This document shows, in pieces, positions 3,743 through 26,571 of a stretch of 64,000 nt of DNA (position 1 is its first letter; each line of letters begins with the position of its first letter). The DNA lies in contig JAWPGT010000024.1 in assembly GCA_034638255.1 (NCBI GenBank), positions 1-64,000 of the forward strand, given 5' to 3'. The position numbers and the translations under genes are program-made. The DNA is from Coprinus comatus. Taxonomy: Eukaryota; Basidiomycota; Agaricomycetes; Agaricales; Agaricaceae. A model generated the notes under the pieces. That model saw only the letters and a list, made by a program, of their open reading frames with translations, was not told the origin of the DNA and ran no database searches.

Positions 3743-4098
3743 AGGGGGTCCTAATTAAAGGGGCCTGACTACGACTTACTAAATGCGTAGATTTCAGCGA
3801 TGTACAAACCCACCGCGGTCCGGTTGGCTAGGATTTCAAACACCTAGACTTCCCACTTTGCTCCGGCGAAGGAGTATCACTTTGTGAGCTGCGACGCGTT
3901 ATACCAGGGATTAGCGGGTATAACGACTACCAGTATACCACTAAGAGGTACCGGTTAGACCAGAACAAGTAACGCCGTTTCAAGTTCCAAGATGACGGGA
4001 ATCGATTGACTGCCGGGTTTCGACAATCCTCCGTTCGGTTCCAAGGGGGAGAGACCGGATAACCCTACCGGTCCAGTGAAAGGGAAGCTTTAATCTAA

Positions 4099-4624
4099 TG
4101 TTATGACCACGAACCGTTAAGCTGAACACTCCTGGAACTTAAACGCTAGAGTGCAGTCGTGTAGGAACGTGCGATCAATAAACACTCTGCTGCAATCTCA
4201 AGGCCTTTCAACCTAGTGACCGAGAGGTATGGAGACAGAGATGTATAAGGGCTACAACAGAAGAGATTAAAGCTTAAGGCTTTAATCGTCTAATACATCA
4301 AGTATTTATACTATTCTAGGGATGTACCTAATAATAGCTACTAACTAATTATAACCTAATACTCGTCATCGCTTTATAATCTACTCCATACACAATGCTA
4401 GAACTGTCAACAGGAGTAGGTGAGACATCGGGGTCGGGGACTATTTACTCCATATACAATGAAAGATTAGTCAACAGGAGTAAAATGACGAAACAGATAA
4501 CTAATACTGGAGCTGGGGAAATGTATACTTCTAAGCATAAGTGGAGTCTCATACTTAGTTCGACGTTAGGTCATAACGATGTCATAGTGATGTCACTGTG
4601 ATGTCACCGGGGAGTGGTATGTCA
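4099..4624 (-). repeat. Gypsy-1 5' LTR
   Basis: On the minus strand the segment begins TGACATACC and ends GGTCATAACA, the usual TG...CA ends. It lies directly upstream of the leader and gag, which fits a 5' LTR of about 526 bp. Its end resembles the end of the Gypsy-2 LTR (GGTCTTAACA at 18816-18825). The sequence directly after it, beginning TTAGATTAAAG on the minus strand, does not look like a standard tRNA 3'-end complement. The 3' LTR is not in the window, so the borders rest on this one copy. Confidence 0.7.
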
Positions 4625-4733
4625 AGCGGAGTCGTCCATGGTGTCATCATTGGGAATGAGTTCGGGGAAGATGGCGAACAAGTCTTCCTCGGTGGTGGTG
4701 GTACGGGCCGGTGGTTTGGGTGGACTCGTAACA
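4625..4733. other. Short unassigned segment between Gypsy-1 and the palindrome
   Basis: About 109 bp, richer in G, C and CpG than the adjoining decayed element. It matches neither the right-hand Gypsy-2 copy nor the Gypsy-1 LTR. A minus-strand frame reads through it from the Gypsy-2 integrase remnant to a stop at 4622, but that looks accidental. It is either the pre-insertion target of Gypsy-1 or the sequence joined at the palindrome break. Confidence 0.5.
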
Positions 4734-6910
4734 CTTTCAATTAGAAGTTCAGCTATGTCATCCGCAGTAGCCATTTTTGAAGTGGGTATTAATAGTATTC
4801 CCTTCATAAGTCCATGGTCCACAATAGACAAAATAGAATCATGTGGGCCATCTGGAGGTAGATCGGTAATCATGTCCATGCTGATTTGAGTAAAAGGTCT
4901 GGTTGAAACAGGGCCTTTTATTGGTTGTAGGGGTGGTTTGAGAGGGTGTTGGTTAATTTTATATTGTTGGCATGTTCCACAGCCTTTGACATAATTTTTG
5001 ACAAATGCTCTCATTCCAGGCCAATAGCAATATTGCGCTATTTTTCAATAAGTTTCAAGTATGCCAGGGTGTCCAGCTGTTATGTGGTCATGCACTCATT
5101 GTAAGAGTGACTGTCTTAAGGTTAGATCATCAGGTATGACAATTTTCCCTTGAAATCTTGTAAATCCATTATTGTCTTGTTCATAAGAATTGTTGTTGAG
5201 GATAGACTTGTGTTGTTTTGTAGAGTCTTTGATTCTTTGACCAATAATATTATCGATAATGTTGATTTCAATTTGTTGAGTGAACAATGTTGCAGGCATG
5301 GCTGTAACATTGTGGTTGTCTTCTTTGTCTAGAGTGTGATCTGGTCTTCTAGATAAATGGTCTGCTGGGCCATTTTTCTTTCCAGGTGTGTGTTTGATTT
5401 CAATGTTGAATCATTGGATGTAAGCTGTCCAATGTGCTTGTCTTCTGTTCAGGTCTTCTGGTTTTCTCCATCTTTTGAGGTTTTCGTGATCCGACCATAC
5501 AATTGTCTTGTGTGGTGATCCTTCTATGTAGTGTCTCCATTTTTTTAGAGCACGAATGATGGTGAGAAATTCTTGTTCAGAGACATGGTAGTTTCATTCG
5601 GCAGTAGTAAAACTTTTGCTGTGAAAAGCAATGGGGTGTTTTACTCTGTTTATGTCCTTTTGAAGTAACACTGCTCCAGTAGTGTTTACTGATGCATCAC
5701 ATTCAATTTCGAATGGTTTTGTTTGATCAGCAACAGCTAGTACTGGTTCTTTGAGAAAGTGTTCTTTAAGACTTTCAAATGAATTTTGACATTCTTCAGT
5801 CCATTTGAACTTCTTGGTGCTTGACATTAAAGCATTGAGTGGTGCAGTGAGAGATGAATATCCACGGATAAATTTGCAATAGAAGTTGCAAAATCCAATG
5901 AATTTTCTGACGTCTCAAACTGTTTTTGGGATTGGCCACTGTTGTATGCCTTTGAGCTTGGCTTGGTCCATGGCAATATTGTTTGGAGTAACAATAATTC
6001 CAAGGTATTCCAATTGTTGTCTTTGGAATTTGCATTTCTCTGTTTTGAGATAAAGATTGTTGTCTTTGAGAACTTTCAGTACTTCTTTAGTTAAGCATTG
6101 AAGTTCTTCTCGAGTTTTCACATGAATGAGTATATCATCCATATATACAATTACTCCTCCTTTGTCAATGAGTTTTCGAAATAGTGAGTCCATCATAGCT
6201 TGAAATGTTGCTGGTGAATTGCACATTCCAAAGAACATCACAGTTGGTTTGAAAAGTCCTCTGGGAGTCTTGAATGCAGCTTTCCATTGATCTCCATCTT
6301 TGTTTGGATATTGTTACACCCTAATCAAATGTCTAACTTTGTGAACCATTTGGAATCACAAAGTTTGTCCAGTATGGATGAGATGAGAGGGATTGGATAA
6401 GCATTCTTGATAGTATGTTCATTGAGATAATTCATCTTCAGACATTGTTTGAATCAATTGTTGAAAACATGCTTTGTTTTCTGATTCAGTTCTCCATTGT
6501 AGAGTTTTGTCTGTCCAGTTGATGTCTGGATTATGTTCTTGTAACCAGGGAAATCCTAGAATGATTCTGGGTTTTCCTAGTCTGATTACTTTTGCTTCAA
6601 TAAGGGTTTCCTTTCCATTGATTTCACTTGTCAATGGGCAAAAGGTAGTACAAACTCCATTTCTTGTTCTGTCTGCATTGTATGCGGTGATTGGCTTGTC
6701 TAATGGTTTGACTGGCCACTTGTATTTTGTTACAAGTGCTGGATCTATGAAGTTTCCTCCTGCTCCTGAATCTATAAGGGCAAGAATGTCCATGGTTTGT
6801 GTTTTCTGTGTTACTGCACTTGAAGTTTGAGTTGGGGCATAGATCACATTTGATCCATTTCCTTGCAGTATCAGAAATTGCGTTTAGAGAATTAGACATG
6901 GTGGCTAATC
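4734..6910 (-). pseudogene. pol: Gypsy-2 Pol remnant, left copy
   Basis: Decayed polyprotein. Protease DSGAGGNF is near 6750, reverse transcriptase with YMDD near 6140, RNase H with PFEIECDAS near 5705, and the integrase zinc-binding end with C-x2-C (GCGTCQQY) near 4970. A 405-bp in-frame deletion at about 6428-6432 removes the protease-RT linker and the first RT blocks; right-arm positions of about 21499-21903 have no counterpart here. In-frame TGA stops fall where the right copy has them. One codon in the segment GIQQWP is still CAG here but TAG on the right. It cannot encode an active enzyme. Confidence 0.9.
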
Positions 6911-6913
6911 TCT

Positions 6914-8070
6914 TCAAGCAAAATCCTTGATTTCATTGTTGAAATCAGTTTTCATGTTTTCATGAGAAAAGTAGTCATAGACATCTGCTACTTCCTCTTC
7001 TGTTGCATTGGTGATGAGATTGTTAATTTGTCTTCTTAAGTTGTTGTTGCGTTTTGGTGGGTATGTCTTCTTCTGAGGGAAGGACTTCCTTGGGAAGTTC
7101 CTTGGCCTAGATGACATTGGGCTGTTCCATTTGTTTGGGCAGTCCCTTGCATAGTGTCCTGTCTTGTGACATAAGAAGTATTTCCCATCTCTAAATTCCT
7201 TCTTTTGATCATTTGTAAAGATCTTGTCAATGAATGCTGACATGATCTCCTTTGGATCAATCTGCTTGTAAGGTTCTTCTTCATCTTCTGAGTATTCTTC
7301 TTGCATATACTTGTCTTCTTCATCCTGTATTCTGAGATTGTTGATGGCTTCTTGGATATAGTCAACATCCATGGCATTTGGGTCTTTCTGATAAGACGTT
7401 GGTTGTGTTTGATGGTGGATAGGATACGGTTTGTGATATCTTTGGTTTTGGTGATGGTACGGGTGCAAATAGATTGCAGTTCACCTTCTTGCTTGATATT
7501 TTCTATCAAATTCTCGGACTATATCAAATACTGATTCGGCAGCTCTGGCAGCTCCTTTCCATGCTTCCCAATTATCTGCTGGGTTTGCTCGGATTGCATA
7601 TCCTCCGATTTCAAAGTCATGTCCTTTCTTGAACAAGTAGATTTTCTGTCTGTCTTCTGTAACTCCTGCATCTGTAGCAAGTGCCTCGAATTCAGCAATG
7701 AATTCATCAATGGTTCTTCCTCTTTGCTCGAGGTTAGATAGTTTGTCCAACGAGTTTGAGGCATGATGAGTTGACTTGAAACTGGCTTCAAGTAGTTGTA
7801 CGAATGCTGGCCATGTTCCAAAGTTGTAGACTTGTGTGGTGGCATTAAGTTTTGAGTTCTGAAAGGTTACTCTCCATGTGCCTGCTGGTCCAGCCATAAG
7901 GGCAAGACAGTACATGATTTTCCTTTCATCACTATGGAATTTGTCAGGATCTGTGATGAAATACAGATCAACGGCTTCTTTCCATCTTTGGTATGAGGTG
8001 GGTCTCCTAAGAATATGGGTGGTTGTAGCAACTTGAGTGCTGGGTGATTTGTGTTTCCACTTCCAGACAT
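6914..8070 (-). pseudogene. gag: Gypsy-2 Gag remnant, left copy
   Basis: Counterpart of the intact 386-codon frame at 19855-21015. It is broken here by a 1-bp frame change near 8005 (GGAGACCCACC against GGAGACCATACC on the right) and by a TGA near 7481 where the right copy reads CAA. The C-terminal part still shows the basic Tyr/His-rich stretch and a zinc knuckle whose first Cys is Tyr (YFLC...H...C). The right copy has the same substitution, so it was present before duplication. The local cluster of differences from the right arm near 7480-7540 is denser than elsewhere. Confidence 0.88.
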
Positions 8071-8109
8071 TCTGCTATTTGGTCCTACTGGTGGTGGTGG
8101 AGGTGGTGG

Positions 8110-8795
8110 TTATTGTCTTTGTGGTGACTGCTGTCTTTGTGGAGACAGTTGTCTTGGTGTTGGAGGGTTTTGTGGTATGATTGGAGGGGGTGGAGTGTTT
8201 GAAGGTTCATAGGGTGGTGGAGGTGGTGAGGGTATTCTTGGAGGTGGGTCTCTTGAGTTGGAGTCTGTTCCTGGCTCCTCTTCTTCTTCGGACTCTCCTG
8301 ATTCTTCTTCTGATTCTTCCTCTGTACTTCCTTCTCCTTCTTCTTCTTCTCCTGAAGACTGTTCTGGATTTTTGCAGTAAGGTAGTCTTGGATCAGAGTC
8401 TGTGGGTTGATTGACTCTTTCCCTTAGTGAATTTGGGTATGATCTACTGCTTCCAACACTAGTTGAGTGTTGTAAAGGTATGGGTTGTCTCAAAACGTAA
8501 GTTCCAGGTGATAGTTGTTGAGTTGTGTAAAGTGGTGAGGTGGGGGTGTAAGTTTGTTGATAACTTGTTGATTCTGTTGCTTGTGTTCTGAATAGTAAAG
8601 ATTGTGGATTTTCTTCAAAACTGTTTTCTCGGTTTTCTCAGTTTCTTCTTTCTCTAGCTTCTCGGAGCTCTTCTCAACTGTACCCTGTATATTGAGGAAT
8701 TGCCTCCCCTTGGCTAGGTCCTCTTCACTCAATTCTGTTGTTTTACCAATTAAAGTATTGACCCAGATTTTGATCTTGGAGGAATCACACAACAA
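8110..8795 (-). pseudogene. Gypsy-2 leader ORFs (acidic/Pro-rich), left copy
   Basis: There are two short frames upstream of gag. The frame at 8490-8795 encodes a Lys/Glu-rich 101-residue peptide. The frame at 8110-8493 encodes 127 residues with a long Glu/Ser run followed by Pro-rich and Gln-rich tracts. In the right arm the second is in the same frame as gag, separated by a single TAA, so together they are probably an N-terminal extension of Gag that lost continuity. Gypsy-1 has a comparable acidic and proline-rich stretch upstream of its Gag start. Confidence 0.65.
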
Positions 8796-9101
8796 TGGCT
8801 CAGTGTTTTAACTGAACACTGCTAGTCTTCTTTGACACAGACCCTGTCTCGGTGAGGTTCACGCTTGCTCTGCAAAGCAAGTTAGGGGGTGCAACCCTAA
8901 AAATTATCGACACTTTCTTCTGGCCTACTCCAGGAATCCAAAATTTCCATAGGGCAGATGGGGGCAGGGGCCTAATAGTGGCAACGGTGTAGAAGGTTAT
9001 CCCAGGTAGATCTTTAGTACAGTGCAAAGCAATGAATAGATCCTCTTGGCTGCCATGAGGGCGCTTCCAAGATTTAAGGGCAGTGAGGCTTTTAACTAAT
9101 G

Positions 9102-10025
9102 TTAAGACCTCGAACCATTAGATGCCTGTGAATCTAACATGAGCACCATATGGGAACAAGCTGGCAATCTTCACTACTATCCTTCTAATTAGTATCCTAG
9201 TGCCCAGTAGCTAGGACTGTTTTGGGATAATAATGAGTTAGAATTAACCAGTTAAAAGCCTGGCTTTTAACCCTACTAGTACATGTGTATTTATACCTAT
9301 CTAGACTAAGTTCTAGAGATATCTATATACTGGTAGTCCATGAGTCATTACTAGTCAACTATGGTGGCTATGAGTGTCCAGACAAGTAGAGAACTGTTAT
9401 GAACCCAACCAAATCAGAAGATTCCGACTCTGACGATGAACTGAATCAAACTATTTTGATTCTCTTACCAAGCTGGTCACACACTGAGTCCAATGACTCA
9501 GACTCTGAGCTGGAGTACCACTCAGTGGAAGACAATCCTACCACTCTCTAGAAGAACTATTTATAGCTCTGCACAGTATGTATAGCTTTGAGAACTTACT
9601 ACAAACTATATATACAGACACATAGCCATATACCTGTGTACATTGAAATAGCCACTAATAGTTTCTTTATATCTCTTTATGTTTCTTTATGCCTCTTTGA
9701 ACCCAAGTAGATAGTTCTCTTGTTGTGTATATTGTTCTCTACTTGTCTGGACACTCATAGCCACCATAGTTGACTAGTAATGACTCATGGACTACCAGTA
9801 TATAGATATCTCTAGAACTTAGTCTAGATAGGTATAAATACACATGTACTAGTAGGGTTAAAAGCCAGGCTTTTAACTGGTTAATTCTAACTCATTATTA
9901 TCCCAAAACAGTCCTAGCTACTGGGCACTAGAATACTAATTAGAAGGATAGTAGTGAAGATTGCCAGCTTGTTCCCATATGGTGCTCATGTTAAATTCAC
10001 AGGCATCTAACAGTTTGAGGTCTTA
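9102..10025. repeat. Nested inverted repeat around a 340-bp segment, left arm
   Basis: 9103-9394 and 9735-10025 are inverted copies, about 290 bp each, corresponding to the 3' half of the Gypsy-2 LTR. They flank 9395-9734, which starts TGTTATGAACCC. That 340-bp core is in the plus orientation here and also in the plus orientation in the right arm (18192-18530), although the arms as a whole are inverted. The core has therefore flipped in one arm. Confidence 0.9.
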
Positions 10026-10051
10026 ATACATACCTCATTCCCACTCTCTAG

Positions 10052-10269
10052 TGTTAAAACAATAGTGTAGCATATGTTGCATGGGTAGGTATGACTTAGA
10101 ACTTACTGAGGGTGGTTGTTGCAGTAAGAGGAACTGAAGTATATAATGCAGGAATACAAATGTTTATATACTATAATACGTTGGTCCATGCGAGAACATA
10201 TTAGGTCACATGTTCATCAAGTGTGATGCCATTAGAGAATGTTATTGTAGAACTAATAATAGTTCAACA
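10052..10269 (-). repeat. Copia-1 3' LTR, left copy
   Basis: On the minus strand it begins TGTTGAACTATT after a purine tract and ends GTTTTAACA, giving TG...CA ends and 218 bp. The mirrored copy lies at 17725-17943. Confidence 0.75.
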
Positions 10270-10305
10270 CTCCCCTGAATTCAAACATGGCAGCTAAATA
10301 GCACC

Positions 10306-12460
10306 CTATGTTGAGGACATATTCTTTGAGTGCTTGGCAGTGCTATATGTGGGATTAGAAAACTCTAACCCATAATAGTTATCATAGAAGTATTCAAACT
10401 TCACACATCCAAGATTCTTTGTTAAAAGATCAGCAGGGTTTTCAGTGCCTGGAATGAAATAAAGTTGAACTTTCTTTTCATCAATTACTTGATGAATGAA
10501 ATGGAAGATTATATCAATGTGTTTTGATCTCTTCTTGACAGCAGGATTTTGCATGATGAAGAGAGAGCCCATATTGTCTCCACATATTTCCATTGGTTCA
10601 TTGTTGTGTAAACCAAGTTCCATCATTAGACTTCTGATCCATACTGACTGATGGCTACAATCAGAGAGAGCCATGTATTCAGCCTCAGTGGATGACAATG
10701 CAATAGTCTTTTGTGATCTACTGACCCAGGCTACCAGGCAGGATGCAACAGTTGACAGATAACCAGTTTGGGATCTTTGGTTTGAAGGATCACTAGACCA
10801 ATCAGAATCACTATAAGCAATGAAGCCCTCATTACCAGAACCATCAAGCATCATTCAGTATTCCTGAGTTGCTAAAAGGTATCTACAAATATAGAGAGCT
10901 CTATGCAAATGTTCTTCAGTAGGGTTGTGAGCATGTTGACTTAGCTTAGTCACAGCAAATGAGATGTCCAGACATGTGCCTATAGCAATGTACAATAGTG
11001 ATTGGATCACCTGTTGGTACCTAGAATGGATGGAGGAGTTGATCAGCTTGTCATTAGGAACTAGATAGTACCCTTCTAGCAGCAGGGTTTATGCCAGTTT
11101 GGTATCATAGTCAGAGCCAGTGATTTTAAACCTTTCCAGGATCTTCTCTAAATAAGCACATTGATCTAGGAAGATCTTTTGATTAGCTTGATCTCTCCAG
11201 ATGCACATACTGAGAAATTCTTTGACTTCTCCAAGGTCATGGTATTCCCACTTTTTCATGAACTCTTCTTTTAGCTTTTTCAGCAGGGCAGAGTCATTTC
11301 CCATAAAAAGTATGTTGTCAACATACACAACAGCAATGACAAATTTGCCATCTTTTCAACAATATATATAAATACCAGCATCGGATTCACATTGCTTGAA
11401 TCCTAGTTGGTTCATGGAAGATGCCATCTCCTTCTACCAGGCCAAGCTGGCTTGTTTAAGGTATACAATGCTCATTGTAACCTGCAGACCAAATGTTCCT
11501 TTCCCTTAAGTTTGAAACCTTCAGGTTGATCCATGTAGATTTTCTTATCCAGTTTGCCACAGAGATATGCTGTCTTTACATTGACAGATTCGATATCCCA
11601 GTCTTCAAGGGTGGCTAACCTGAGCAGGATTTGAGTGGACTCATATCTTACTACTGGAGAAAATAGTTCATCAAAGTCAATGCCCTCAACTTGAGAAAAT
11701 CCTTTAGCAACTAGTCTAGCATGTTTGCAACTGTCACTCTTTTCATTAAAGACCCATCTATTTTTACAGCTTTCCTTCCTTCCAGAAGTGTCACTAACTT
11801 GTAAACTTGTCACTTCTTAAGCACACTTAGTTCTTCAAGACAAGCTTTGTGCCAGTGGTCTCATTCCTCTGGATTTAATTTTACAAGATCACAGAATTGC
11901 TTGGGAACTGATGCAGAACTTGCTTTTGCCAATAAAAAGTTCATCAATTCTAACCCCCCTTCCTTAGTAATCCATTGAATCTTACAATCTGCATCTTCTT
12001 CCATTGCATCAGGTTTTTGTTCCCTTGCATATTGCTATGAAGCATCCTCGTGTTGTCTGTGTATTTCATCACAATGTTCTTAGATTTCTTCAGGTGAAAG
12101 TTGATGTGGATCTGCTGCATTTGGGCAATCTTGTTGATTTCTGATTCTGAAATCATGACCACAGAGATGAACTCTCCCCTGGGGAGGTAGGGGTTCATTT
12201 ATATTATAATCTTGTAGGATTTCAGATGGATGTGTTCTCTCCCCATAAATGTTACCTTCTTTAAATGGAACAAACCTTTCTTGGCCAGAATGGCAAGGTA
12301 AGGGTTCAACTGGTCTAGTAGGTTGTTCAGGTGATGGAGAAATGGGACAGGTGGAGTCAGTTCGAGGAGCAGGGCTTGGACTTGGGTGACAAATAGGTGA
12401 TCCGGGATCAGTGTATGATAACATGTCATCATCATCTTCATCAGTTACTTCCTCGACTGT
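10306..12460 (-). pseudogene. pol: Copia-1 Pol remnant (RT and RNase H), left copy
   Basis: Conserved copia blocks are readable: a linker with Pro/Ser-rich sequence (12080-12424), RT motifs NRWVFNEKSD, ARLVAKGFSQ, VNVKTAYL and MDQPEGF at 11500-11750, and the catalytic YVDN in place of YVDD near 11320. RNase H motifs YSDSDW, SSTEAEYMAL and NPADLLTKNLG lie at 10400-10810. At least five stops interrupt it, several of them TGA where copia proteins usually have Arg. The catalytic Asp-to-Asn change is present in both arms. It is inactive. Confidence 0.88.
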
Positions 12461-12475
12461 TGTTTTCCTGGGAGC

Positions 12476-12875
12476 TGTAAGGGCGACTCACATCGGTGAC
12501 AAGCAGCCTGACAACTAGCGAGGAATCCAAAGTTATATTTGATCGGAAACATATTACAGAACAGATACAACATACCTAGTGAGGAATCTAAAGAGAAAGA
12601 GTTGGGGATTCACTCGCACAGGCTACACACAATATATACTACTATACAAACAGAGATGCCAGCTATTGTCCAGAGGGATGTCGTAACATGGACAATGGGA
12701 ACAATGGGGGACGGGTCACATGAGGGGGCAAGTCATGAAAGCATGAAGTCAGGAGGTGTTCCAATGGAAGTTGGAACATCGGAGGATCGATTGGTAGTCA
12801 GTGTGTTAGTGTAAGGGTCAGTAGTCGGTGTGTCAGTGTATCGGTGTAAGGGTTGGTGAGGAAGGTCCCCTTACA
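12476..12875 (+). repeat. Copia-2 5' LTR, left copy
   Basis: 400 bp beginning TGTAAGGGCGAC and ending CCCCTTACA, so the ends form the short inverted repeat TGTAAGGG/CCCTTACA. Gag coding begins within a few bases after it. The mirrored copy is 15119-15518. Internally there are near-repeats of CAGTGTGTTAGTGTAAGGGT type near 12800-12850. Confidence 0.8.
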
Positions 12876-13552
12876 CTGCAGCTATTGGTGGTTCACCTGC
12901 TACTGCCACCACTGCTCTGGTACCCCCCACAAATGCTGATGAAATTTGGAAGTTTGATAATTGTGAGGTATTTGCTCTTGGGATGATAAATTCCCAATTG
13001 AGTGACGACATGCTCCGGCATGGACAAATTACCTCCAATGGTCTGTGGAACCACCTAAAATGAATGTACGGCACATTCTCAGCAGGCGCAGCTTACGAGC
13101 TGTATGCTTCTGCAGATTCTTTTTGGCTCTCCAGTGTGACAGATCCCTCTAAGGAGATCTCCACCTTCTGGAATTATTTCACACAGTTACAGCAAGCCTT
13201 GCCCTCCATCAATGTTCCTGAGATCCTTTGGGCTCTCATGTTGATGACACGCATTCCTCCTCAATGGAGTGCAACACATGCTGCTCTACTCATTCAATAT
13301 GGTAATTCCCTTTCAACCTTAATGGTCCAGATTGTCTCTGATGCAATAATGGGTGCCTGGTGGGATTCCTGTGGAGCTGCATCTGCTTCTTGTGCCACTT
13401 CTACTGGCATTAAAAACTATAAGGGTGCAAAGCCCTATTCTAAACCCTCCGGTGGCACTCCACAGCAGTCCCAACAACAACAACAACAGAAGTCATCTGG
13501 TTCTGGTGGTGATGCTTCTGGGGGGGATAAGGATAAAAAGAAGAAGCATTGA
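12876..13552 (+). pseudogene. gag: Copia-2 Gag remnant (UBN2/copia-type), left copy
   Basis: Translating from just after the LTR gives a copia Gag pattern: TNADEIWKFDNCE, a helical region with FWNYFTQLQQALPSIN, then a Gln/Gly-rich and Lys-rich tail ending at 13552. One TGA at 13061-13063 breaks the frame just before MYGTFS; 162 codons stay open after it. I see no CCHC knuckle before the frame ends. The right-arm copy at 14442-15118 has the same break and only a few residue differences (for example W or R at one site), showing how similar the arms are close to the centre. Confidence 0.8.
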
Positions 13553-13679
13553 CACAGAAAATGTGGAGGCAACAAGGCAAACAAAGCCAAAGGAGATGAT
13601 GGTAACATCAACATGATTTTGTCACCCACTGTTCTGGAGTCTTTCACAACTCCCACTAACAAACCCTCTTCCACTCATT

Positions 13680-14320
13680 CTCTGGGGCAGGAGACTGATA
13701 TAAATGGTAACAAACAGGTACCACTAGTCATTATAAATGGATACCACTAGTTGTTTCAAATAGGTACATACATATGTATCTTACTTGGCACATATGTCTG
13801 TACCACTCTTTGTACATATATATGTATCCATTATTATTATGATAGGCAATAGGAATGAATTAATCTGAATTTTGTACACTTTTAGATTAGAGAAATTCAA
13901 AAAATTGAAAAAAAAAAAAAAAATTAGGTGAAATACAGTAGATTTGTACAAGTTTTCTGTACAGATTTACTACATTTTCTCATAATTGTGGTAGGTTTGT
14001 AAATGTACTACTTTTATGAGAAATGTAGTACATTTGTACAAGTTTCCTGTACAAATCTACTGTATTTCACCTAATTTTTTTTTTTTCAATTTTTTGAATT
14101 TCTCTAATCTAAAAGTGTACAAAATTCAGATTAATTCATTCCTATTGCCTATCATAATAATAATGGATACATATATATGTACAAAGAGTGGTACAGACAT
14201 ATGTGCCAAGTAAGATACATATGTATGTACCTATTTGAAACAACTAGTGGTATCCATTTATAATGACTAGTGGTACCTGTTTGTTACCATTTATATCAGT
14301 CTCCTGCCCCAGAGAATGAG
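13680..14320. repeat. Palindrome centre, A/T-rich and non-coding
   Basis: The centre lies at about 13986-14013, with 28 unpaired bases between arms. Each flank has a poly(A)/poly(T) run (13907-13922 and 14075-14086) and short repeats of TGTACA-like and ACTAGTGGTAC-like words. No gene is supported. The adjacent TTTGTACAAG and TTCTGTACAGAT words are themselves dyads, which could promote fold-back. Confidence 0.9.
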
Positions 14321-15518
14321 TGGAAGAGGGTTTGTTAGTGGGAGTTGTGAAAGACTCCAGAACAGTGGGTGACAAAATCATGTTGATGTTACCATCATCT
14401 CCTTTGGCTTTGTTTGCCTTGTTGCCTCCACATTTTCTGTGTCAATGCTTCTTCTTTTTATCCTTATCCCCCCCAGAAGCATCACCACCAGAACCAGATG
14501 ACTTCTGTTGTTGTTGTTGTTGGGACTGCTGTGGAGTGCCACTGGAGGGTTTAGAATAGGGCTTTGCACCCTTATAGTTTTTAATGCCAGTAGAAGTGGC
14601 ACAAGAAGCAGATGCAGCTCCACAGGAATCCCACCAGGCACCCATTATTGCATCAGAGACAATCTGGACCATTAAGGTTGAAAGGGAATTACCATATTGA
14701 ATGAGTAGAGCAGCATGTGTTGCACTCCATTGAGGAGGAATGCGTGTCATCAACATGAGAGCCCAAAGGATCTCAGGAACATTGATGGAGGGCAAGGCTT
14801 GCTGTAACTGTGTGAAATAATTCCAGAAGGTGGAGATCTCCTTAGAGGGATCTGTCACACTGGAGAGCCGAAAAGAATCTGCAGAAGCATACAGCTCGTA
14901 AGCTGCGCCTGCTGAGAATGTGCCGTACATTCATTTTAGGTGGTTCCACAGACCATTGGAGGTGATTTGTCCATGCTGGAGCATGTCGTCACTCAATTGG
15001 GAATTTATCATCCCAAGAGCAAATACCTCACAATTATCAAACTTCCAAATTTCATCAGCATTTGTGGGGGGTACCAGAGCAGTGGTGGCAGTAGCAGGTG
15101 AACCACCAATAGCTGCAGTGTAAGGGGACCTTCCTCACCAACCCTTACACTGATACACTGACACACCGACTACTGACCCTTACACTAACACACCGACTAC
15201 CAACTGATCCTCCGATGTTCCAACTTCCATTGGAACACCTCCTGACTTCATGCTTTCATGACTTGCCCCCTCATGTGACCCGTCCCCCATTGTTCCCATT
15301 GTCCATATTACAACATCCCTCTGGACAATAGCTGGTGTCTCTGTTTGTATAGTAGTATATATTGTGTGTAGCCTGTGCAAGTGAATCCCCAACTCTTTCT
15401 CTTTAGATTCCTCACTAGGTATGTTGTATCTGTTCTGTAATATGTTTCTGATCAAATATAACTTTGGATTCCTCGCTAGTTGTCAGGCTGCTTGTCACCG
15501 ATGTGAGTCGCCCTTACA
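14014..15518 (-). mobile_element. Copia-2, right copy: gag and 5' LTR
   Basis: Mirror of 12476-13985. The LTR is 15119-15518 and the gag remnant 14442-15118 on the minus strand, with the in-frame TGA retained. Four or five residue differences from the left copy are visible in gag, so the arms are near-identical but not identical here. Confidence 0.85.
14442..15118 (-). pseudogene. gag: Copia-2 Gag remnant, right copy
   Basis: Same protein family and same interruption as the left copy. The frame is open for 162 codons from 14930, with the upstream part separated by the shared TGA. It has a Gln run, then a Ser/Gly stretch, then a Lys run at the C-terminus. A Trp codon of the left copy is Arg (CGA) here, near residue 21, so the left arm carries the derived TGG or the right arm has reverted; the direction cannot be told from two copies. 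Confidence 0.8.
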
Positions 15519-15529
15519 GCTCCCAGGAA

Positions 15530-17688
15530 AACAACAGTCGAGAAAGTAACTGATGAAGATGATGATGACATGTTATCATACACTGATCCCGGATCACCTA
15601 TTTGTCACCCAAGTCCAAGCCCTGCTCCTCGAACTGACTCCACCTGTCCCATTTCTCCATCACCTGAACAACCTACTAGACCAGTTGAACCCTTACCTTG
15701 CCATTCTGGCCAAGAAAGGTTTGTTCCATTTAAAGAAGGTAACATTTATGGGGAGAGAACACATCCATCTGAAATCTTACAAGATTATAATATAAATGAA
15801 CCCCTACCTCCCCAGGGGAGAGTTCATCTCTGTGGTCATGATTTCAGAATCAGAAATCAACAAGATTGCCCAAATGCAGCAGATCCACATCAACTTTCAC
15901 CTGAAGAAATCTAAGAACATTGTGATGAAATACACAGACAACACGAGGATGCTTCATGGCAATATGCAAGGGAACAAAAACCTGATGCAATGGAAGAAGA
16001 TGCAGATTGTAAGATTCAATGGATTACTAAGGAAGGGGGGTTAGAATTGATGAACTTTTTATTGGCAAAAGCAAGTTCTGCATCAGTTCCCGAGCAATTC
16101 TGTGATCTTGTAAAATTAAATCCAGAGGAATGAGACCACTGGCACAAAGCTTGTCTTGAAGAACTAAGTGTGCTTAAGAAGTGACAAGTTTACAAGTTAG
16201 TGACACTTCTGGAAGGAAGGAAAGCTGTAAAAATAGATGGGTCTTTAATGAAAAGAGTGACAGTTACAAACATGCTAGACTAGTTGCTAAAGGATTTTCT
16301 CAAGTTGAGGGCATTGACTTTGATGAACTATTTTCTCCAGTAGTAAGATATGAGTCCACTCAAATCCTGCTCAGGTTAGCCACCCTTGAAGACTGGGATA
16401 TCGAATCTGTCAATGTAAAGACAGCATATCTCTATGGCAAACTGGATAAGAAAATCTATATGGATCAACCTGAAGGTTTCAAACTTAAGGGAAAGGAACA
16501 TTTGGTCTGCAGGTTACAATGAGCATTGTATACCTTAAACAAGCCAGCTTGGCCTGGTAGAAGGAGATGGCATCTTCCATGAACCAACTAGGATTCAAGT
16601 GATGTGAATCCGATGCTGGTATTTATATATATTGTTGAAAAGATGGCAAATTTGTCATTGCTGTTGTGTATGTTGACAACATACTTTTTATGGGAAATGA
16701 CTCTGCCCTGCTGAAAAAGCTAAAAGAAGAGTTCATGAAAAAGTGGGAATACCATGACCTTGGAGAAGTCAAAGAATTTCTCAGTATGTGCATCTGGAGA
16801 GATCAAGCTAATCAAAAGATCTTCCTAGATCAATGTGCTTATTTAGAGAAGATCCTGGAAAGGTTTAAAATCACTGGCTCTGACTATGATACCAAACTGG
16901 CATAAACCCTGCTGCTAGAAGGGTACTATCTAGTTCCTAATGACAAGCTGATCAACTCCTCCATCCATTCTAGGTACCAACAGGTGATCCAATCACTATT
17001 GTACATTGCTATAGGCACATGTCTGGACATCTCATTTGCTGTGACTAAGCTAAGTCAACATGCTCACAACCCTACTGAAGAACATTTGCATAGAGCTCTC
17101 TATATTTGTAGATACCTTTTAGCAACTCAGGAATACTGAATGATGCTTGATGGTTCTGGTAATGAGGGCTTCATTGCTTATAGTGATTCTGATTGGTCTA
17201 GTGATCCTTCAAACCAAAGATCCCAAACTGGTTATCTGTCAACTGTTGCATCCTGCCTGGTAGCCTGGGTCAGTAGATCACAAAAGACTATTGCATTGTC
17301 ATCCACTGAGGCTGAATACATGGCTCTCTCTGATTGTAGCCATCAGTCAGTATGGATCAGAAGTCTAATGATGGAACTTGGTTTACACAACAATGAACCA
17401 ATGGAAATATGTGGAGACAATATGGGCTCTCTCTTCATCATGCAAAATCCTGCTGTCAAGAAGAGATCAAAACACATTGATATAATCTTCCATTTCATTC
17501 ATCAAGTAATTGATGAAAAGAAAGTTCAACTTTATTTCATTCCAGGCACTGAAAACCCTGCTGATCTTTTAACAAAGAATCTTGGATGTGTGAAGTTTGA
17601 ATACTTCTATGATAACTATTATGGGTTAGAGTTTTCTAATCCCATATATAGCACTGCCAAGCACTCAAAGAATATGTCCTCAACATAG
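15530..17688 (+). pseudogene. pol: Copia-1 Pol remnant (RT and RNase H), right copy
   Basis: Linker 15570-15914, RT 16181-16905, RNase H 17140-17688. In-frame TGA codons at 16133-16135, 16182-16184, 16520-16522 and 17137-17139 sit where copia polymerases commonly have Arg or a similar residue (EE-x-DHW, LKK-x-, CRLQ-x-ALY). A further TGA near 16600 is specific to this arm; the left arm reads CAA there. The RNase H block with SSTEAEYMALSD and the C-terminal NPADLLTKNLG is the longest open piece, at 182 codons. The active-site motif is YVDN. Confidence 0.88.
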
Positions 17689-17724
17689 GGTGCTATTTAG
17701 CTGCCATGTTTGAATTCAGGGGAG

Positions 17725-17943
17725 TGTTGAACTATTATTAGTTCTACAATAACATTCTCTAATGGCATCACACTTGATGAACATGTGACCTAATATGTTC
17801 TCGCATGGACCAACGTATTATAGTATATAAACATTTGTATTCCTGCATTATATACTTCAGTTCCTCTTACTGCAACAACCACCTCACACTCAGTAAGTCA
17901 GTTGTACCTACCCATGCAACATATGCTACACTATGTTTTAACA
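17725..17943 (+). repeat. Copia-1 3' LTR, right copy
   Basis: 219 bp with TGTTGAAC and TTTTAACA ends, placed directly after the purine tract that follows the RNase H coding region. It differs from the left copy by a few substitutions and a small indel near 17880-17900. Confidence 0.75.
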
Positions 17944-17944
17944 C

Positions 17945-18825
17945 ATATGGGAACAAGCTGGCAATCTTCACTACTATCCTTCTAATTAGTATCCTAGTGC
18001 CCAGTAGCTAGGACTGTTTTGGGATAATAATGAGTTAGAATTAACCAGTTAAAAGCCTGGCTTTTAACCCTACTAGTACATGTGTATTTATACCTATCTA
18101 GACTAAGTTCTAGAGATATCTATGTACTGGTAGTCCATGAGTAATTACTAGTCAACTACAGTGGCTATGAGTGTCCAGACAAGTAGAGAACTGTTATGAA
18201 CCCAACCAAATCAGAAGATTCTGACTCTGACGATGAACCGAATCAAACTATTTTGATTCTCTTACCAAGCTGATCACACACTGAGTCCAATGACTCAGAC
18301 TCTGAGCTGGAGTACCACTCAGTGGAAGACAATCCTACCACTCTCTAGAAGAACTATTTATAGCTCTGCACAGTATGTATAGCTTTGAGAACTTACTACA
18401 AACTATATATACAGACACATAGCCATATACCTGTGTACATTGAAATAGCCACTAATAGTTTCTTTATATCTCTTTATGTTTCTTTATGCCTCTTTGAACC
18501 CAAGTAGATAGTTCTCTTGTTGTGTATATTGTTCTCTACTTGTCTGGACACTCATAGCCACCATAGTTGACTAGTAATGACTCATGGACTACCAGTATAT
18601 AGATATCTCTAGAACTTAGTCTAGATAGGTATAAATACACATGTACTAGTAGGGTTAAAAGCCAGGCTTTTAACTGGTTAATTTTAACTCATTATTATCC
18701 CAAAACAGTCCTAGCCACTGGGCACTAGGATACTAATTGGAAGGATAGTAGTGAAGATTGCCAGCTTGTTCCCATATGGTGCTCATGTTAAATTCACAGG
18801 CATCTAATGGTTCGAGGTCTTAACA
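17945..18825 (+). repeat. Gypsy-2 5' LTR (18192-18825) and truncated inverted LTR copy, right arm
   Basis: 18192-18825 begins TGTTATGAAC and ends GTCTTAACA directly before the Gypsy-2 leader, so it is a candidate 634-bp 5' LTR in the same orientation as the gag and pol that follow. 17945-18191 is an inverted, shortened copy of its 3' half. Compared with the left arm, 69 bp are missing at its outer edge, next to the Copia-1 LTR end. No matching intact 3' LTR was found, so the LTR start is provisional. Confidence 0.65.
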
Positions 18826-19132
18826 TTAGTTAAAAGCCTCATTGCCCTTAAATCTTGGAAGCGCCCTCATGGCAGCCAAGAGGATCTATTCATTGCTTTG
18901 CACTGTACTAAAGATCTACCTGGGATAACCTTCTACACCGTTGCCACTATTAGGCCCCTGCCCCCATCTGCCCTATGGAAATTTTGGATTCCTGGAGTAG
19001 GCCAGAAGAAAGTGTCAATAATTTTTAGGGTTGCACCCCCTAACTTGCTTTGCAGAGCAAGCATGAACCTCACCAAGACAGGGTCTGTGTTGAAGAAGAC
19101 TAGCAGTGTTCAGTTAAAACACTGAGCCATCG

Positions 19133-19815
19133 TTGTGTGATTCCTCCAAGATCAAAATCTGGGTCAATACTTTAATTGGTAAAACAACAGAATTGAGTGA
19201 AGAGGACCTAGCCAAGGGGAGGCAATTCCTCAATGTACAGGGTACAGTTGAGAAGAGCTCAGAGAAGCTAGAGAAAGAAGAAACTGAGAAAACTGAGAAA
19301 ACAGTTTTGAAGAAAATCCACAATCTTTACTATTCAGAACACAAGCAACAGAATCAACAAGTTATCAACAAACTTACACCCCCACCTCACCACTTTACAC
19401 AACTCAACAACTATCACCTGGAACTTACGTTTTGAGACAACCTATACCTTTACAACACTCAACTAGTGTTGGAAGCAGTAGATCATACCCAAATTCACTA
19501 AGGGAAAGAGTCAATCAACCCACAGACTCTGATCCAAGACTACCTTACCGCGAAAATCCAGAACAGTCTTCAGGAGAAGAAGAAGAAGGAGAAGGAAGTA
19601 CAGAGGAAGAATCAGAAGAAGAATCAGGAGAGTCCGAAGAAGAAGAGGAGCCAGGAACAGACTCCAACTCAAGAGACCCACCTCCAAGAATACCCTCACC
19701 ACCTCCACCACCCTATAAACCTTCAAACACTCCACCCCCTCCAATCACACCACAAAACCCTCCAACACCAAGACAACTGTCTCCACAAAGACAGCAGTCA
19801 CCACAAAGACAATAA
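19133..19815 (+). pseudogene. Gypsy-2 leader ORFs (acidic/Pro-rich), right copy
   Basis: The frame at 19133-19435 (100 codons, Lys/Glu-rich) is followed with a 4-base overlap by 19432-19815 (127 codons). The latter carries a run of Glu and Ser around residues 48-75, then Pro-rich and Gln-Arg tracts. It is in the same frame as the Gag start at 19855, with only a TAA between, so it was probably an N-terminal extension of Gag. Function unknown. Confidence 0.65.
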
Positions 19816-19854
19816 CCACCACCTCCACCACCACCAGTAGGACCAAATAGCAGA

Positions 19855-21015
19855 ATGTCTGGAAGTGGAAACACAAATCACCCAGCACTCAAGTTGCTAC
19901 AACCACCCATATTCTTAGGAGACCATACCTCATACCAAAGATGGAAAGAAGCCGTTGATCTGTATTTCATCACAGATCCTGACAAATTCCATAGTGATGA
20001 AAGGAAAATCATGTACTGTCTTGCCCTTATGGCTGGACCAGCAGGCACATGGAGAGTAACCTTTCAGAACTCAAAACTTAATGCCACCACACAAGTCTAC
20101 AACTTTGGAACATGGCCAGCATTCGTACAACTACTTGAAGCCAGTTTCAAGTCAACTCATCATGCCTCAAACTCGTTGGACAAACTATCTAACCTCGAGC
20201 AAAGAGGAAGAACCATTGATGAATTCATTGCTGAATTTGAGGCACTTGCTACAGATGCAGGAGTTACAGAAGATAGACAGAAAATCTACTTGTTCAAGAA
20301 AGGACATGACTTTGAAATCGGAGGATATGCAATCCAAGCAAACCCAGCAGATAATTGGGAAGCATGGAAAGGAGCTACCAGAGCTGCCAAATCAGTATTC
20401 AATGCCATACAAGAATTTGATAGGAAACACCAAGCAAGAAGGCAAACCACAATCTATTTGCACCCATACTATCACCGAAACCAAAGATATCACAAACCAT
20501 ATCCTATCCACCATCAAACACAACCAATGTCTTATCAGAAAGACCCAAATGCCATGGATGTTGACTATATCCAAGAAGCCATCAACAATCTCAGAATACA
20601 GGACAAAGAAGACAAGTATATGCAAGAAGAATACTCAGAAGATGAAGAAGAACCTTACAAGCAGATTGATCCAAAGGAGATCATGTTAGCATTCATTGAC
20701 AAGATCTTTACAAATGATCAGAAGAAGGAATTTAGAGATGGGAAATACTTCTTATGTCACAAGATGGGACACTATGCAAGAGACTGCCCAAACAGATGGA
20801 ACAGCCCAATGTCATCTAGGCCAAGGAACTTCCCAAGGAAGTCCTTCCCTCAGAAGAAGACATACCTGCCAAAACGCAACAACAATAACTTAAGAAGACA
20901 AATCAACAATCTCATCACCAACGCAACAGAAGAAGAAGTAGCAGATGTCTATGACTACTTTTCTCATGAAAACATGAAAACTGATTTCGACGATGAAATC
21001 AAGGATTTTGCTTGA
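19855..21015 (+). CDS. gag: Gypsy-2 Gag, open frame
   Basis: 386 codons, the same length as Gypsy-1 Gag. Capsid domain in the first 180 residues, with YQRWKEAVDLYF, ALMAGPAGTW and F-x-AL motifs. A basic His/Tyr/Gln linker and an acidic segment (EEYSEDEEEPY) follow, then a zinc knuckle at about residues 298-311. The first Cys of the knuckle is Tyr (YFLCHKMGHYARDC), so RNA binding by the knuckle is probably lost although the frame is open. The C-terminus matches Gypsy-1 Gag in [12 protein letters not shown]. The stop is followed by pol in a shifted frame, as in Gypsy-1. Confidence 0.85.
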   Translation: MSGSGNTNHPALKLLQPPIFLGDHTSYQRWKEAVDLYFITDPDKFHSDERKIMYCLALMAGPAGTWRVTFQNSKLNATTQVYNFGTWPAFVQLLEASFKSTHHASNSLDKLSNLEQRGRTIDEFIAEFEALATDAGVTEDRQKIYLFKKGHDFEIGGYAIQANPADNWEAWKGATRAAKSVFNAIQEFDRKHQARRQTTIYLHPYYHRNQRYHKPYPIHHQTQPMSYQKDPNAMDVDYIQEAINNLRIQDKEDKYMQEEYSEDEEEPYKQIDPKEIMLAFIDKIFTNDQKKEFRDGKYFLCHKMGHYARDCPNRWNSPMSSRPRNFPRKSFPQKKTYLPKRNNNNLRRQINNLITNATEEEVADVYDYFSHENMKTDFDDEIKDFA

Positions 21016-21029
21016 AGAGATTAGCCACC

Positions 21030-24000
21030 ACGTCTAACTCTCTAAACACAATTTCTGATACTGCAAGGAAACAGATCAAATGCAATCTATACACCAACTC
21101 AAACTTCAAGTGCAGTAACACAGAAAACACAAACTGTGGACATCCTTGCTCTTATAGATTCAGGAGCAGGAGGAAATTTCATAGATCCAGCACTTGTAAC
21201 AAAATACAAGTGGCCAGTCAAACCATTGGACAAGCCAATCACTGCTTACAATGCAGACAGAACAAGAAATGGAGTTTGCACTACATTTTGTCCATTGACA
21301 AGTGAAATCAATGGAAAGGAAACTCTTATTGAAGCAAAAGTAATTGGACTAGGAAAACCCAGAATCATTCTAGGATTTCCCTGGTTACAAGAACATAATC
21401 CAGACATCAACTGGACAGACAAAACTTTACAATGGAGAACTGAATCAGAAAACAAAGCATGTTTTCAACAATTGATTCAAACAATGTCTGAAGATGAATT
21501 TCAAATAAATCAAATCTTAACCAAAGATGATGATTCAATTGAAATTAACAAGACATCATTCTCAAATGCAATTGCCCAGCAATTTGGACAAAAGAAAGAG
21601 GACGACCCAACAAAAGTCGTACCTAAAGAATTCAAAGAATATCTGGAAATATTCAACAAGAAAGCATCTGAACACTTTCCTAAATCAAGAGAATGGGATC
21701 ATAAAATTGAAATGAAAGATACTTTCAGACCAATTTCTATGAAACCATACAGACTATCACCACTGGAAGAAGAAGAACTCAACAAGTTCATTGACGAAAA
21801 TCTTGAAAAAGGCTATATTCGACCATCCGAGTCACCAATGGCCTCACCATTCTTCTTTGTTGGAAAGAAAGATGGAAAACTTCACCCATGTCAAGACTAT
21901 CATTATCTCAATGAACATACTATCAAGAATGCTTATCCAATCCCTCTCATCTCATCCATACTGGACAAACTTTGTGATTCCAAATGGTTCACAAAGTTAG
22001 ACATTTGATTAGGGTGTAACAATATCCAAATCAAAGATGGAGATCAATGGAAAGCTGCATTCAAGACTCCCAGAGGACTTTTCAAACCAACTGTGATGTT
22101 CTTTGGAATGTGCAATTCACCAGCAACATTTCAAGCTATGATGGACTCACTATTTCGAAAACTCATTGACAAAGGAGGAGTAATTGTATATATGGATGAT
22201 ATACTCATTCATGCGAAAACTCGAGAAGAACTTCAATGCTTAACTAAAGAAGTACTGAAAGTTCTCAAAGACAACAATCTTTATCTCAAAACAGAGAAAT
22301 GTAAATTCCAAAGACAACAATTGGAATACCTTGGAATTATTGTTACTCCAAACAATATTGCCATGGACCAAGCCAAGCTCAAAGGCATACAATAGTGGCC
22401 AATCCCAAAAACAGTTTGAGACGTCAGAAAATTCATTGGATTTTGCAACTTCTATTGCAAATTTATCCGTGGATATTCATCTCTCACTGCACCACTCAAT
22501 GCTTTAATGTCAAGCACCAAGAAGTTCAAATGGACTGAAGAATGTCAAAATTCATTTGAAAGTCTTAAAGAACACTTTCTCAAAGAACCAGTACTAGCTG
22601 TTGCTGATCAAACAAAACCATTTGAAATTGAATGTGATGCATCAGTAAACACTACTGGAGCAGTGTTACTTCAAAAGGACATAAACAGAGTAAAACACCC
22701 CATTGCTTTTCACAGCAAAAGTTTTACTACTGCCGAATGAAACTACCATGTCTCTGAACAAGAATTTCTCACCATCATTCATGCTCTAAAAAAATGGAGA
22801 CACTACATAGAAGGATCACCACATAAGACAATTGTATGGTCGGATCACGAAAACCTCAAAAGATGGAGAAAACCAGAAGACCTGAACAGAAGACAAGCAC
22901 ATTGGACAGCTTACATCCAATGATTCAACATTGAAATCAAACACACACCTGGAAAGAAAAATGGCCCAGCAGACCATTTATCTAGAAGACCAGATCACAC
23001 TCTAGACAAAGAAGACAACCACAATGTTACAGCCATGCCTGCAACATTGTTCACTCAACAAATTGAAATCAACATTATCGATAATATTATTGGTCAAAGA
23101 ATCAAAGACTCTACAAAACAACACAAGTCTATCCTCAACAACAATTCTTATGAACAAGACAATAATGGATTTACAAGATTTCAAGGGAAAATTGTCATAC
23201 CTGACGATCTAGCCTTAAGACAGTCACTCTTACAATGAGTGCATGACCACATAACAGCTGGACACCCTGGCATACTTGAAACTTATTGAAAAATAGCACA
23301 ATATTGCTATTGGCCTGGAATGAGAGCATTTGTCAAAAATTATGTCAAAGGCTGCGGAACATGCCAACAATATAAAATTAACCAACACCCTCTCAAACCA
23401 CCCCTACAACCAATAAAAGGCCCTGTTTCAACCAGACCTTTTACTCAAATCAGCATGGACATGATTACCGATCTACCTCCAGATGGCCCACATGATTCTA
23501 TTTTGTCTATTGTGGACCATGGACTTATGAAGGGAATACTATTAATACCCACTTCAAAAATGGCTACTGCGGATGACATAGCTGAACTTCTAATTGAAAG
23601 GTTGTTTTCAAAATTTGGAACACCCGAGAAGATCATCTCTGATCGCAGTCCCCAATTTATAGCCAAATCACTACAGCAGTTCTATTCAAGGCTAAATATA
23701 GAACCTGCATACTCCACTGCCTATCACCCACAATCTGATGGATCAACTGAAAGATTCAATCAGGAAATAGAACTATTCCTAGCAATTTATTGCTCAGCAA
23801 ACCCCAACTCTTGGGCAAAATCACTTCCAATACTGGAATTCAACCACAACTCAAGAACACATGCTGGAAGAACCCATACACCTTTTGAACTAATGTATGG
23901 CTACGCACCCAGAATATTCCAAACTATGGAAGAACCATCAAACTTCCCCAGCATTGACAGCTGACTTGAATACCTAGAACAATCCAGAGAACAAGCTCAA

Positions 24001-24483
24001 CAAGCACATGAACACATGCACCAAATCATGATGGAAAGATCTACCAAACCACTGCCTTCACTAGAAGTAGGACAATGTGTTTGGCTAGACAACTGCAACT
24101 TGCCAATTCAGTACAAGTCAAAGAAACTTGCACAGCACTAAGGCCCATTCACCATTACTAGAAAGTTCAGAAACACCACTTATGAACTCAAACTACCCCT
24201 CAAATGGAAGATTCACAACAAGTTCCATGTTCATCTACTAACACCAGTAGAAGAAAATGAAACTTATAGAAAACACTACACAGCACCACCTCCAGACCTA
24301 GTGAATAGAGAAGAAGAATATGAAGTAGAAGCTATTCTTAAACACAAAGGACAAGGGAAGAGAAGACGATATTTGGTCAGATGGAAAGGCTATTCACCCA
24401 CAGAAGATTCCTGGGAAGACAAAGAAAATCTAGAGAATTCCAAAGAAACTCTGGATGCTTATAAAAAGGCTCACAAACTGTGA
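21030..24483 (+). pseudogene. pol: Gypsy-2 Pol with C-terminal chromodomain, multiple stops
   Basis: Protease (DSGAGGNF near 21160), RT (YMDD near 22190), RNase H (PFEIECDAS near 22620), integrase zinc finger (C-x2-C near 23355), integrase core (DMITDLPPDG near 23458, ISDRSPQF near 23637, SDGSTERFNQE near 23735) and a chromodomain (YEVEAILKHKG, YLVRWKGYSPTEDSWE) at 24318-24425. This domain order defines chromoviruses, whose chromodomain targets heterochromatin. In-frame TGA stops lie at 22006, 22417, 22738, 22921, 23236, 23287 and 23962. Others are TAG at 22393 and TAA near 24138. Gypsy-1 has CGT, CGA and CGA at the counterparts of the first three TGA codons. Confidence 0.92.
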
Positions 24484-24765
24484 TCCTATTCCTCACCCTC
24501 TTATGACTACTTTGCCCTCTACATCTGCACTCAAACAAACCAAATGCAACCAACAAACAATCTACTCTCACCCATCCCCAAGCTCATTGAATCTCCCAAT
24601 GAGAATCAACAGCAACTCCATCAGGAGAATGCCATTGGAACTACCACAGCTGAATCCCACATACTACTTGGAACACAAATCCATGTCCTCAAATCCCTTT
24701 ATTGAAGCAATCCTCAACTCCATGCACTTATTTACCAATTATGCCAAAACGTGGATGATTGCTTT
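24484..24765 (+). other. 3' non-coding end of Gypsy-2 up to the hAT insertion
   Basis: Sequence between the chromodomain stop and the outer hAT. A frame of 115 codons crosses it but has no recognisable domain. It ends with the target-site copy ATTGCTTT at 24758-24765; the same eight bases recur at 33741-33748 on the far side of the transposon. Confidence 0.75.
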
Positions 24766-25381
24766 TAAGGCTCCAACCATATCAATTAATTACTGTATAT
24801 AATCAATTAAAACTATATAAATTCCATATCCATATATACCACCTTGAGGAATTCCTGAAACCCAGTAATTATATGGTAACTGATATGGTTTAACTGGAAA
24901 GACAGAAATTTCCAAATATAGTAAAGTCTGGTATTTGATGGCACACCTTTAATCTTTTTCGCTTTTTTGGTCTATTCTTTCATGTCAGAATCACAAAATC
25001 CCTCTATGGGTGAGAAAGAAGGACCTTAAAAAGAGACCTATTATAACCATAACAGATGAAGACTCAGCTCAAAGTTCACCAAAGTGAGTTAGACATAGGG
25101 ATTGGCAGGGGTACATGATACCTGGAGGGTTAGATGCCGGGTAATTGGTGGGTCGGGTAAGGGTCTAGCTGGTATTACCCATTTAGGAACCCGTACCCCT
25201 CATGGCGGGTGGCAGGTACATATATCTAAATATAGTAGGGAAATCTTGCAAATCCACTTGTACATTGAAAAGATACGTTGCTAGACTATCAACGTCAGGT
25301 GTCATATTTCTAGAGTACTACTACACGTAAAACAGTCAATCTACATCTACAAGTACCAAAGCTGAGGCGAAAATTTTCTTC

Positions 25382-26130: not shown

Positions 26131-26134
26131 TAAT

Positions 26135-26482: not shown

Positions 26483-26571
26483 TACCCCCTTGATCTAGCC
26501 AGTCCAGACAAAGGAAGGAAATAAATGGAAAAGAAAAGAGTGAAGTGATAAAAGAAAAGGAAGAGAAGGAA

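Follow-up and report, generated by a model that had tools for sequence, protein, structure and literature searches.

How a near-perfect palindrome of about 19 kb came to stand amid retrotransposons with only a short spacer between its arms is the question raised by the stretch of Coprinus comatus DNA analysed here (the window), which makes up the first 64 kb of a 365,136-bp contig, C24, in a genome of 35.7 Mb in 134 contigs. We found that the palindrome axis falls within a 627-bp foldback-type transposon that is itself inserted in a Copia-like gag, a circumstance that the preliminary description of the locus had not seen and that both explains the small spacer and suggests a mechanism. We consider it probable that the palindrome is an inverted duplication generated by fold-back at the inverted repeats of this transposon. 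The features on which the argument turns are the following.

4,734 to 13,950, plus strand: left palindrome arm, interrupted by the Gypsy-1 element at its outer side (self-comparison, arm alignment).
13,951 to 14,047, no strand: unmirrored spacer (loop) of 97 bp (mirror limits, repeat comparison, folding).
14,048 to 23,600, minus strand: right palindrome arm, mirroring the left (self-comparison, arm alignment).
13,684 to 14,310, no strand: foldback-type transposon at the axis, 627 bp, with an A-type end on both sides (repeats, ends, folding).
12,876 to 13,683, plus strand: Copia-like gag, 5' side of the transposon insertion site (labelled by eye; matches gag copies L004, L006 and L007).
14,311 to 15,118, minus strand: mirrored gag half (arm alignment, comparison of gag copies).

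The mirror is evident in a blastn comparison of the window with itself, in which 10,051-17,944 aligns with its own reverse complement at 98.6% identity, 6,429-9,394 with 21,500-18,531 at 97.0% and 4,734-6,431 with 23,600-21,902 at 99.35%. A global arm-to-arm alignment, made without the axis and without 9,395-9,733 (flipped between the arms, see below), contains 126 substitutions in 8,800 columns (98.57% identity). Both comparisons confirm two inverted copies of one flank and the near-perfect palindrome of about 19 kb, with outer coordinates of 4,734 and 23,600, that had been described. Identity is uneven, ranging from 94.9 to 100% across eight segments (99.4, 94.9, 98.8, 98.6, 98.0, 99.2, 99.5 and 100% from the outer end to the axis), the innermost segment being identical apart from poly-A length. 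The near-perfect mirror halts at 13,950 and 14,048, leaving a short single-copy spacer of 97 bp within inverted repeats; the separation of about 28 bp proposed earlier holds for the unmatched middle of an imperfect stem inside this spacer, but not for the near-perfect mirror itself.

The transposon at the axis is a repeated element, with at least 138 matches, both strands counted, among the best 40 of 64 candidates. Fifteen element ends were read at 13 fetched loci and are of two types, A (nine ends) and B (six ends), which differ in their outermost ~24 bases. Members on C26, C33 and C13 have one end of each type and identical 8-bp target duplications (8/8 each), and an ordinary short A-B insertion on C19 has a target duplication matching at 7/8 positions; for the members on C9, C89 and C128, one end each was fetched. 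The element in the window is A-A, and a target duplication is not visible in its mirrored copy. Both it and the C19 copy fold as near-complete hairpins (-316 and -294 kcal/mol, respectively). The family thus combines long inverted repeats that fold as a hairpin with target-site duplications in its members, as foldback-type terminal inverted repeat elements do, and it resembles Galileo and other foldback elements, its superfamily being unproven. The long members on C26, C33 and C13 have no match to the hAT dimerisation domain (PF05699), for which the genome has 21 matches, and stop-to-stop frames across most of the interior of the C26 member do not exceed 117 aa. Two PF05699 matches are found in the window itself, at 32,562-33,554 on the plus strand.

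Two further members were found to have ends of a single type and no target duplication. The first, on the same contig (C24:323579-324344, L049), is an A-A member with identical 309-bp halves and unmirrored flanks, and is possibly a second rearrangement scar on C24. The second (C83:31348-35396, L054 and L055) has two outward-facing B ends that are separated by about 4 kb and lack a matching target duplication, and is counted as B-B by taking these two ends as one element.

The flanks of the axis transposon tell the same story as its ends. An identical gag half lies on both sides of it and the other half is absent. The three insert-free gag copies examined (L004, L006 and L007) all align up to 13,683 and then run into other sequence; the next 1.5 kb of L007 past this site has no match in the window. 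Nor was the junction expected of a B end, an 8-bp duplication and the right part of gag found in a genome-wide search that allowed up to 3 mismatches. Sequence beyond the seed transposon has been lost, in that neither the B end nor the second gag half was found at the axis or elsewhere in the window. Two A ends, the same gag half twice and a missing other half are what would be expected of an inverted duplication arising from the inverted repeats of the element. The gag designation of 12,876-13,683 was made by eye, and Pfam gave no match for its frame at 13,064-13,552.

We propose that the process would have begun with a short transposon of the foldback type, which lay in a Copia-like gag amid dead retrotransposons and whose inverted repeats measured nearly 300 bp. 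Breakage or failed replication within or beside this element may have let the two repeats pair with each other, most probably on the same single strand, and repair synthesis outward from the A side through the flank would have produced the order flank-A-loop-A-flank. The palindrome axis would then be the transposon's own axis and the 97-bp spacer its old loop, and the B end would have been lost in the process together with the remaining half of gag. Afterwards the arms would have decayed apart, the left one through the arrival of Gypsy-1, the loss of 404 bp and the flipping of the central part of an inner inverted-repeat element, the right one through the loss of about 70 bp, and parts of them may have been re-equalised by arm-to-arm gene conversion. 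In yeast, inverted repeats close to a break fold back and prime synthesis, and fill-in by polymerase delta leads to a hairpin-capped and then a dicentric chromosome (PMC10622511, PMC10164571); nuclease attack on hairpins varies with loop size (PMC8053094). Human fold-back duplications have an unduplicated spacer, and hybrid Alu or LINE repeats form 3 of the 21 junctions sequenced (PMC3907307). The structure in the window corresponds to the final product of such a process, and at this locus, too, there may have been a hairpin-capped or dicentric intermediate.

Some observations weigh against this proposal. The A and B repeats are near-identical beyond their outer ~24 bases, and the point of a switch from one to the other is invisible because the two are too alike further in. 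At one base that differs between the end types, A ends have T (9/9) and B ends mostly C (4/6), and both halves of the window element have C, a B-type base that needs an earlier A-to-B conversion or mutation. An A-A element can also arise without a palindrome, as the member at C24:323.6 kb with its unmirrored flanks demonstrates. Lastly, the left arm extends past the end of the contig, so that no sign of a dicentric intermediate or of its repair is preserved here.

An alternative that would yield the identical A-A product with mirrored flanks is a U-type exchange between an A repeat and a B repeat on sister chromatids, with no single-strand fold-back. The near-identical inverted repeats that it calls for are present, and the sequence offers nothing to separate it from fold-back; a spacer is described as marking fold-back as opposed to homology-free sister-chromatid fusion (PMC3907307), yet an exchange inside the repeats would also keep the loop. 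We regard it as unlikely. Ectopic recombination between two foldback copies, by which Galileo generates inversions (PMC2775673), would have had to join pre-existing duplicate segments, and this presupposes that more than 9 kb had already been duplicated, including the same element at an identical position in gag. In the stretches searched (at most the best 40 candidates each), the sole relative found that comes as close to an arm as the arms come to each other is 1.8 kb of Copia on C53. We think this origin very improbable, even though the A-A member at C24:323.6 kb and the possible B-B member on C83 lack target duplications, as recombinant copies would. Alternative transposition at the element ends of sister chromatids is known for Ac/Ds. 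We consider it highly improbable at this locus: the 8-bp target duplications are hAT-like and hAT dimerisation domains exist in the genome, but the long family members have no such match, and a transposase cuts at the ends of an element, while the mirror axis here runs through its interior.

The differences between the arms bear on whether the assembly itself could have created the palindrome, either through a folded read or through a misjoin of two loci at the hairpin element. Transitions account for 119 of the 126 arm substitutions, and 37 of these 119 are at CpG, which makes up 3.6% of C contexts in the arm. If C or G is assumed to be ancestral, the changes are distributed over both arms, with 30 on the right and 27 on the left in a divergent patch (discussed below) and 37 on the right and 25 on the left elsewhere. 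The window Gypsy-1 compared to 19 fetched copies has the same lean in weaker form (302 transitions, 78 transversions). Each arm also has private lesions: the left has acquired Gypsy-1 and lacks 404 bases, and the right lacks about 70. In addition, 9,147-10,026 matches 17,944-18,823 in direct orientation (98.4%); a C11 copy is continuous with the right-arm order of the inner element and the coordinates of the C61 match agree, which indicates that the flip took place in the left-arm element. Neither folded reads nor sequencing errors would produce such arms, and we judge a folded read unlikely; the earlier view that this is an aged structure is upheld. A misjoin should have left the B-end/gag-right junction elsewhere, and the search that failed to find it presumed an 8-bp duplication, though the junction is possibly unassembled. 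Although the palindrome lies near a contig end, is centred on a 627-bp hairpin and was analysed from the assembled sequence, we give an assembly artefact only a slim chance.

Returning to the fold-back proposal, the extent of what was duplicated depends on how the outer ends are read, for which the composition of the arms is needed.

1 to 4,733, minus strand: Gypsy-1 element, truncated by the contig start (repeated terminus; gag, protease, reverse transcriptase and RNase H domains).
4,734 to 9,101, minus strand: Gypsy-2 remnant of the left arm, with 404 bp missing between 6,428 and 6,429 and the divergent patch at 6,429-7,640.
9,102 to 10,026, plus strand: inner inverted-repeat element of the left arm, with 293-bp repeats and a 339-bp middle that is flipped relative to the right arm.
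10,052 to 12,475, minus strand: 3' part of Copia, from reverse transcriptase to the 3' long terminal repeat (LTR, about 10,052-10,270; RVT_2; genome copies match to 12,475).
15,119 to 17,943, plus strand: mirrored 3' part of Copia and adjoining fragment (arm alignment, genome matches).
17,944 to 18,823, plus strand: inner inverted-repeat element of the right arm, with about 70 bp gone at its axis-side border.
18,824 to 24,766, plus strand: Gypsy-2 remnant of the right arm, unbroken through 23,600 (domain matches, integrase frame 23,320-23,964).

The domains bear out the description of the arms as nested retrotransposons. Gypsy gag, protease and integrase domains are matched by Pfam, and the Copia pol assignment is based on RVT_2 matches at 11,472-11,816 and 11,089-11,355; the RNase H label of 10,306-10,854 was given by eye, with no Pfam match for that frame. 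Judged by eye, the retrotransposons and genes fit a fungal source; one protein search gave no hit at E 0.001, and Rfam gave none at gathering score. In each arm, Copia pol and the gag-like frame lie on opposite strands (12,475-12,876 between them), and a 347-bp fragment at 12,476-12,822, which has matches elsewhere on C3 and C26, separates the two. This strand switch is an inversion or junction that predates the palindrome.

The outer left limit at 4,734 had been taken for a breakpoint inside Gypsy-2 integrase, with the right side original and the left a fold-back copy. Among the best 40 of 275 candidates, 38 of the 40 non-self matches to 2,800-5,600 end at query positions 1932-1942, corresponding to 4,731-4,741 of the window, and the remaining two end earlier, one of these at a contig edge. 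The 19 fetched Gypsy-1 copies have differing flanks beyond the shared terminus, with two alignments stopping 2 bases short. To judge from these sequences, a repeated, younger Gypsy-1 element has inserted into the left arm and ends at 4,733/4,734, which rules out a fold-back copy ending at 4,734, and the assignment of the right side as original falls with the breakpoint. The right arm runs through 23,600 in the open integrase frame and matches a related Gypsy-2 copy as far as 24,766. Since the contig begins inside Gypsy-1, the left arm can be followed no further than this insertion, and there is no basis for designating either arm as original. When 22,500-26,500 was used to look for the rest of the left arm, no near-identical copy appeared among the best 40 of 332 candidates, the best matches past 23,600 being 89-90% alike, on C61 and C39. 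An apparent second palindrome on C27 proved to be just the identity of Gypsy-1 with Gypsy-1 (99.2%) and is uninformative.

The decay of the arms is patchy. Substitutions are clumped, with a variance/mean of 5.34 in 200-bp bins that was equalled in none of 2,000 random placements, and the clumping persists when 6,429-7,700 is left out (1.79, P 0.003); the longest identical run between the arms is 1,043 bp (P 0.0045). The patch at 6,429-7,640 diverges by 5.1% between the arms and the remainder by 0.84%. Compared to the copy on C61, over 1,269 columns, the two versions of the patch are 90.1 and 90.3% alike, and those of 4,734-6,428, over 1,695 columns, 89.5 and 89.1%. Faster mutation in the patch is not favoured, as the distance from C61 is no greater in the patch than in its neighbour. 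Conversion of one arm by an outside copy is not favoured either: relative to C61, 31 differences are derived on the left, 28 on the right and 5 fit neither, although relative to C11 the split is less even (26 left, 17 right, 1 neither). The simplest reading, at which these data hint, is that the patch may retain an older divergence and that the remainder may have been homogenised by arm-to-arm conversion.

The one relative found to be as close as the other arm is at the start of contig C53 (C53:1-1807, L065), which is 99.3% identical to 10,051-11,857 and 99.1% to 16,137-17,944. Over 1,799 columns with 11 arm differences, it is a mosaic of the two, agreeing with the left arm at 3 and the right at 8, and has no private difference, which suggests a young sister copy or reads blended at that contig end; we take it for a separate Copia insertion, since it departs from the arms at the end of the Copia LTR. 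Among the best 40 candidates at most per search, the other best matches to arm stretches do not exceed 95%, except for 74 bases of the foldback element that are matched at 97%. The interval 7,701-8,899 had no search of its own, and part of it matches C11 at ~92%.

The palindrome is a natural and unusually legible case of an already known type of rearrangement. Fold-back duplications in humans (PMC3907307) and yeast (PMC10622511, PMC10164571) are alike in their inverted arms, short unduplicated spacer and inverted homology at the spacer edges, to which can be added the homology of ~300 bp at the hybrid Alu/LINE junctions of the human set (PMC3907307). The palindrome described here differs from these in being natural and old, in its seed, a hairpin transposon with distinguishable ends, and in its unseen outer ends; its spacer is 97 bp compared to 766-70,466 bp in the human set (PMC3907307). 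Foldback and Galileo elements of Drosophila share with the axis family long inverted repeats, internal tandem repeats, short two-repeat members, chimeric members without target duplications and a tie to rearrangements (PMC2775673, PMC3573991), whereas here the target duplications are of 8 rather than 7 bp, no transposase match was found in the long members and the outcome is a palindrome, not an inversion. The willow sex-chromosome palindromes also have long inverted arms, kept alike, it is proposed, by gene conversion (PMC7023750); here the arms consist of transposons with no genes recognised in them, and conversion is only inferred. Mu killer of maize is likewise an inverted duplication of transposon sequence with the potential for hairpin RNA (PMC3440606), while the present case is known from DNA sequence. 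No large palindrome centred on a foldback element or miniature inverted-repeat transposable element was found for a fungus among the open-licence papers listed.

Inverted duplications from short inverted repeats have been described in yeast strains and human patients. A seed transposon with distinguishable ends makes an old event readable, including which half was copied, what was lost, the loop size and the decay of the arms. The A-A and B-B members offer a simple marker for more such events, and the patchiness of the arms makes gene conversion between transposon palindrome arms testable. More speculatively, and in our opinion doubtful, the foldback family might repeatedly reshape this genome, its A-A and B-B members being past fold-backs or inversions, with the palindrome persisting through conversion as on sex chromosomes and, if transcribed, serving as a source of hairpin RNA against its own Gypsy and Copia families. 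The genome carries Piwi-domain and DNA-methylase matches.

Outside the palindrome, a second near-perfect inverted repeat (28,309-29,083 and 29,815-30,589; 775 bp with one mismatch and a 731-bp spacer) lies in a Copia integrase-reverse transcriptase region. Further along, 40,448-41,127 contains a histone gene, H2B by eye, with a Histone match above cut-off in 40,698-40,943, and 41,198-48,911 contains three tandem related genes of 66-71% DNA identity, with weak, below-cut-off MFS_1 matches in one exon each.

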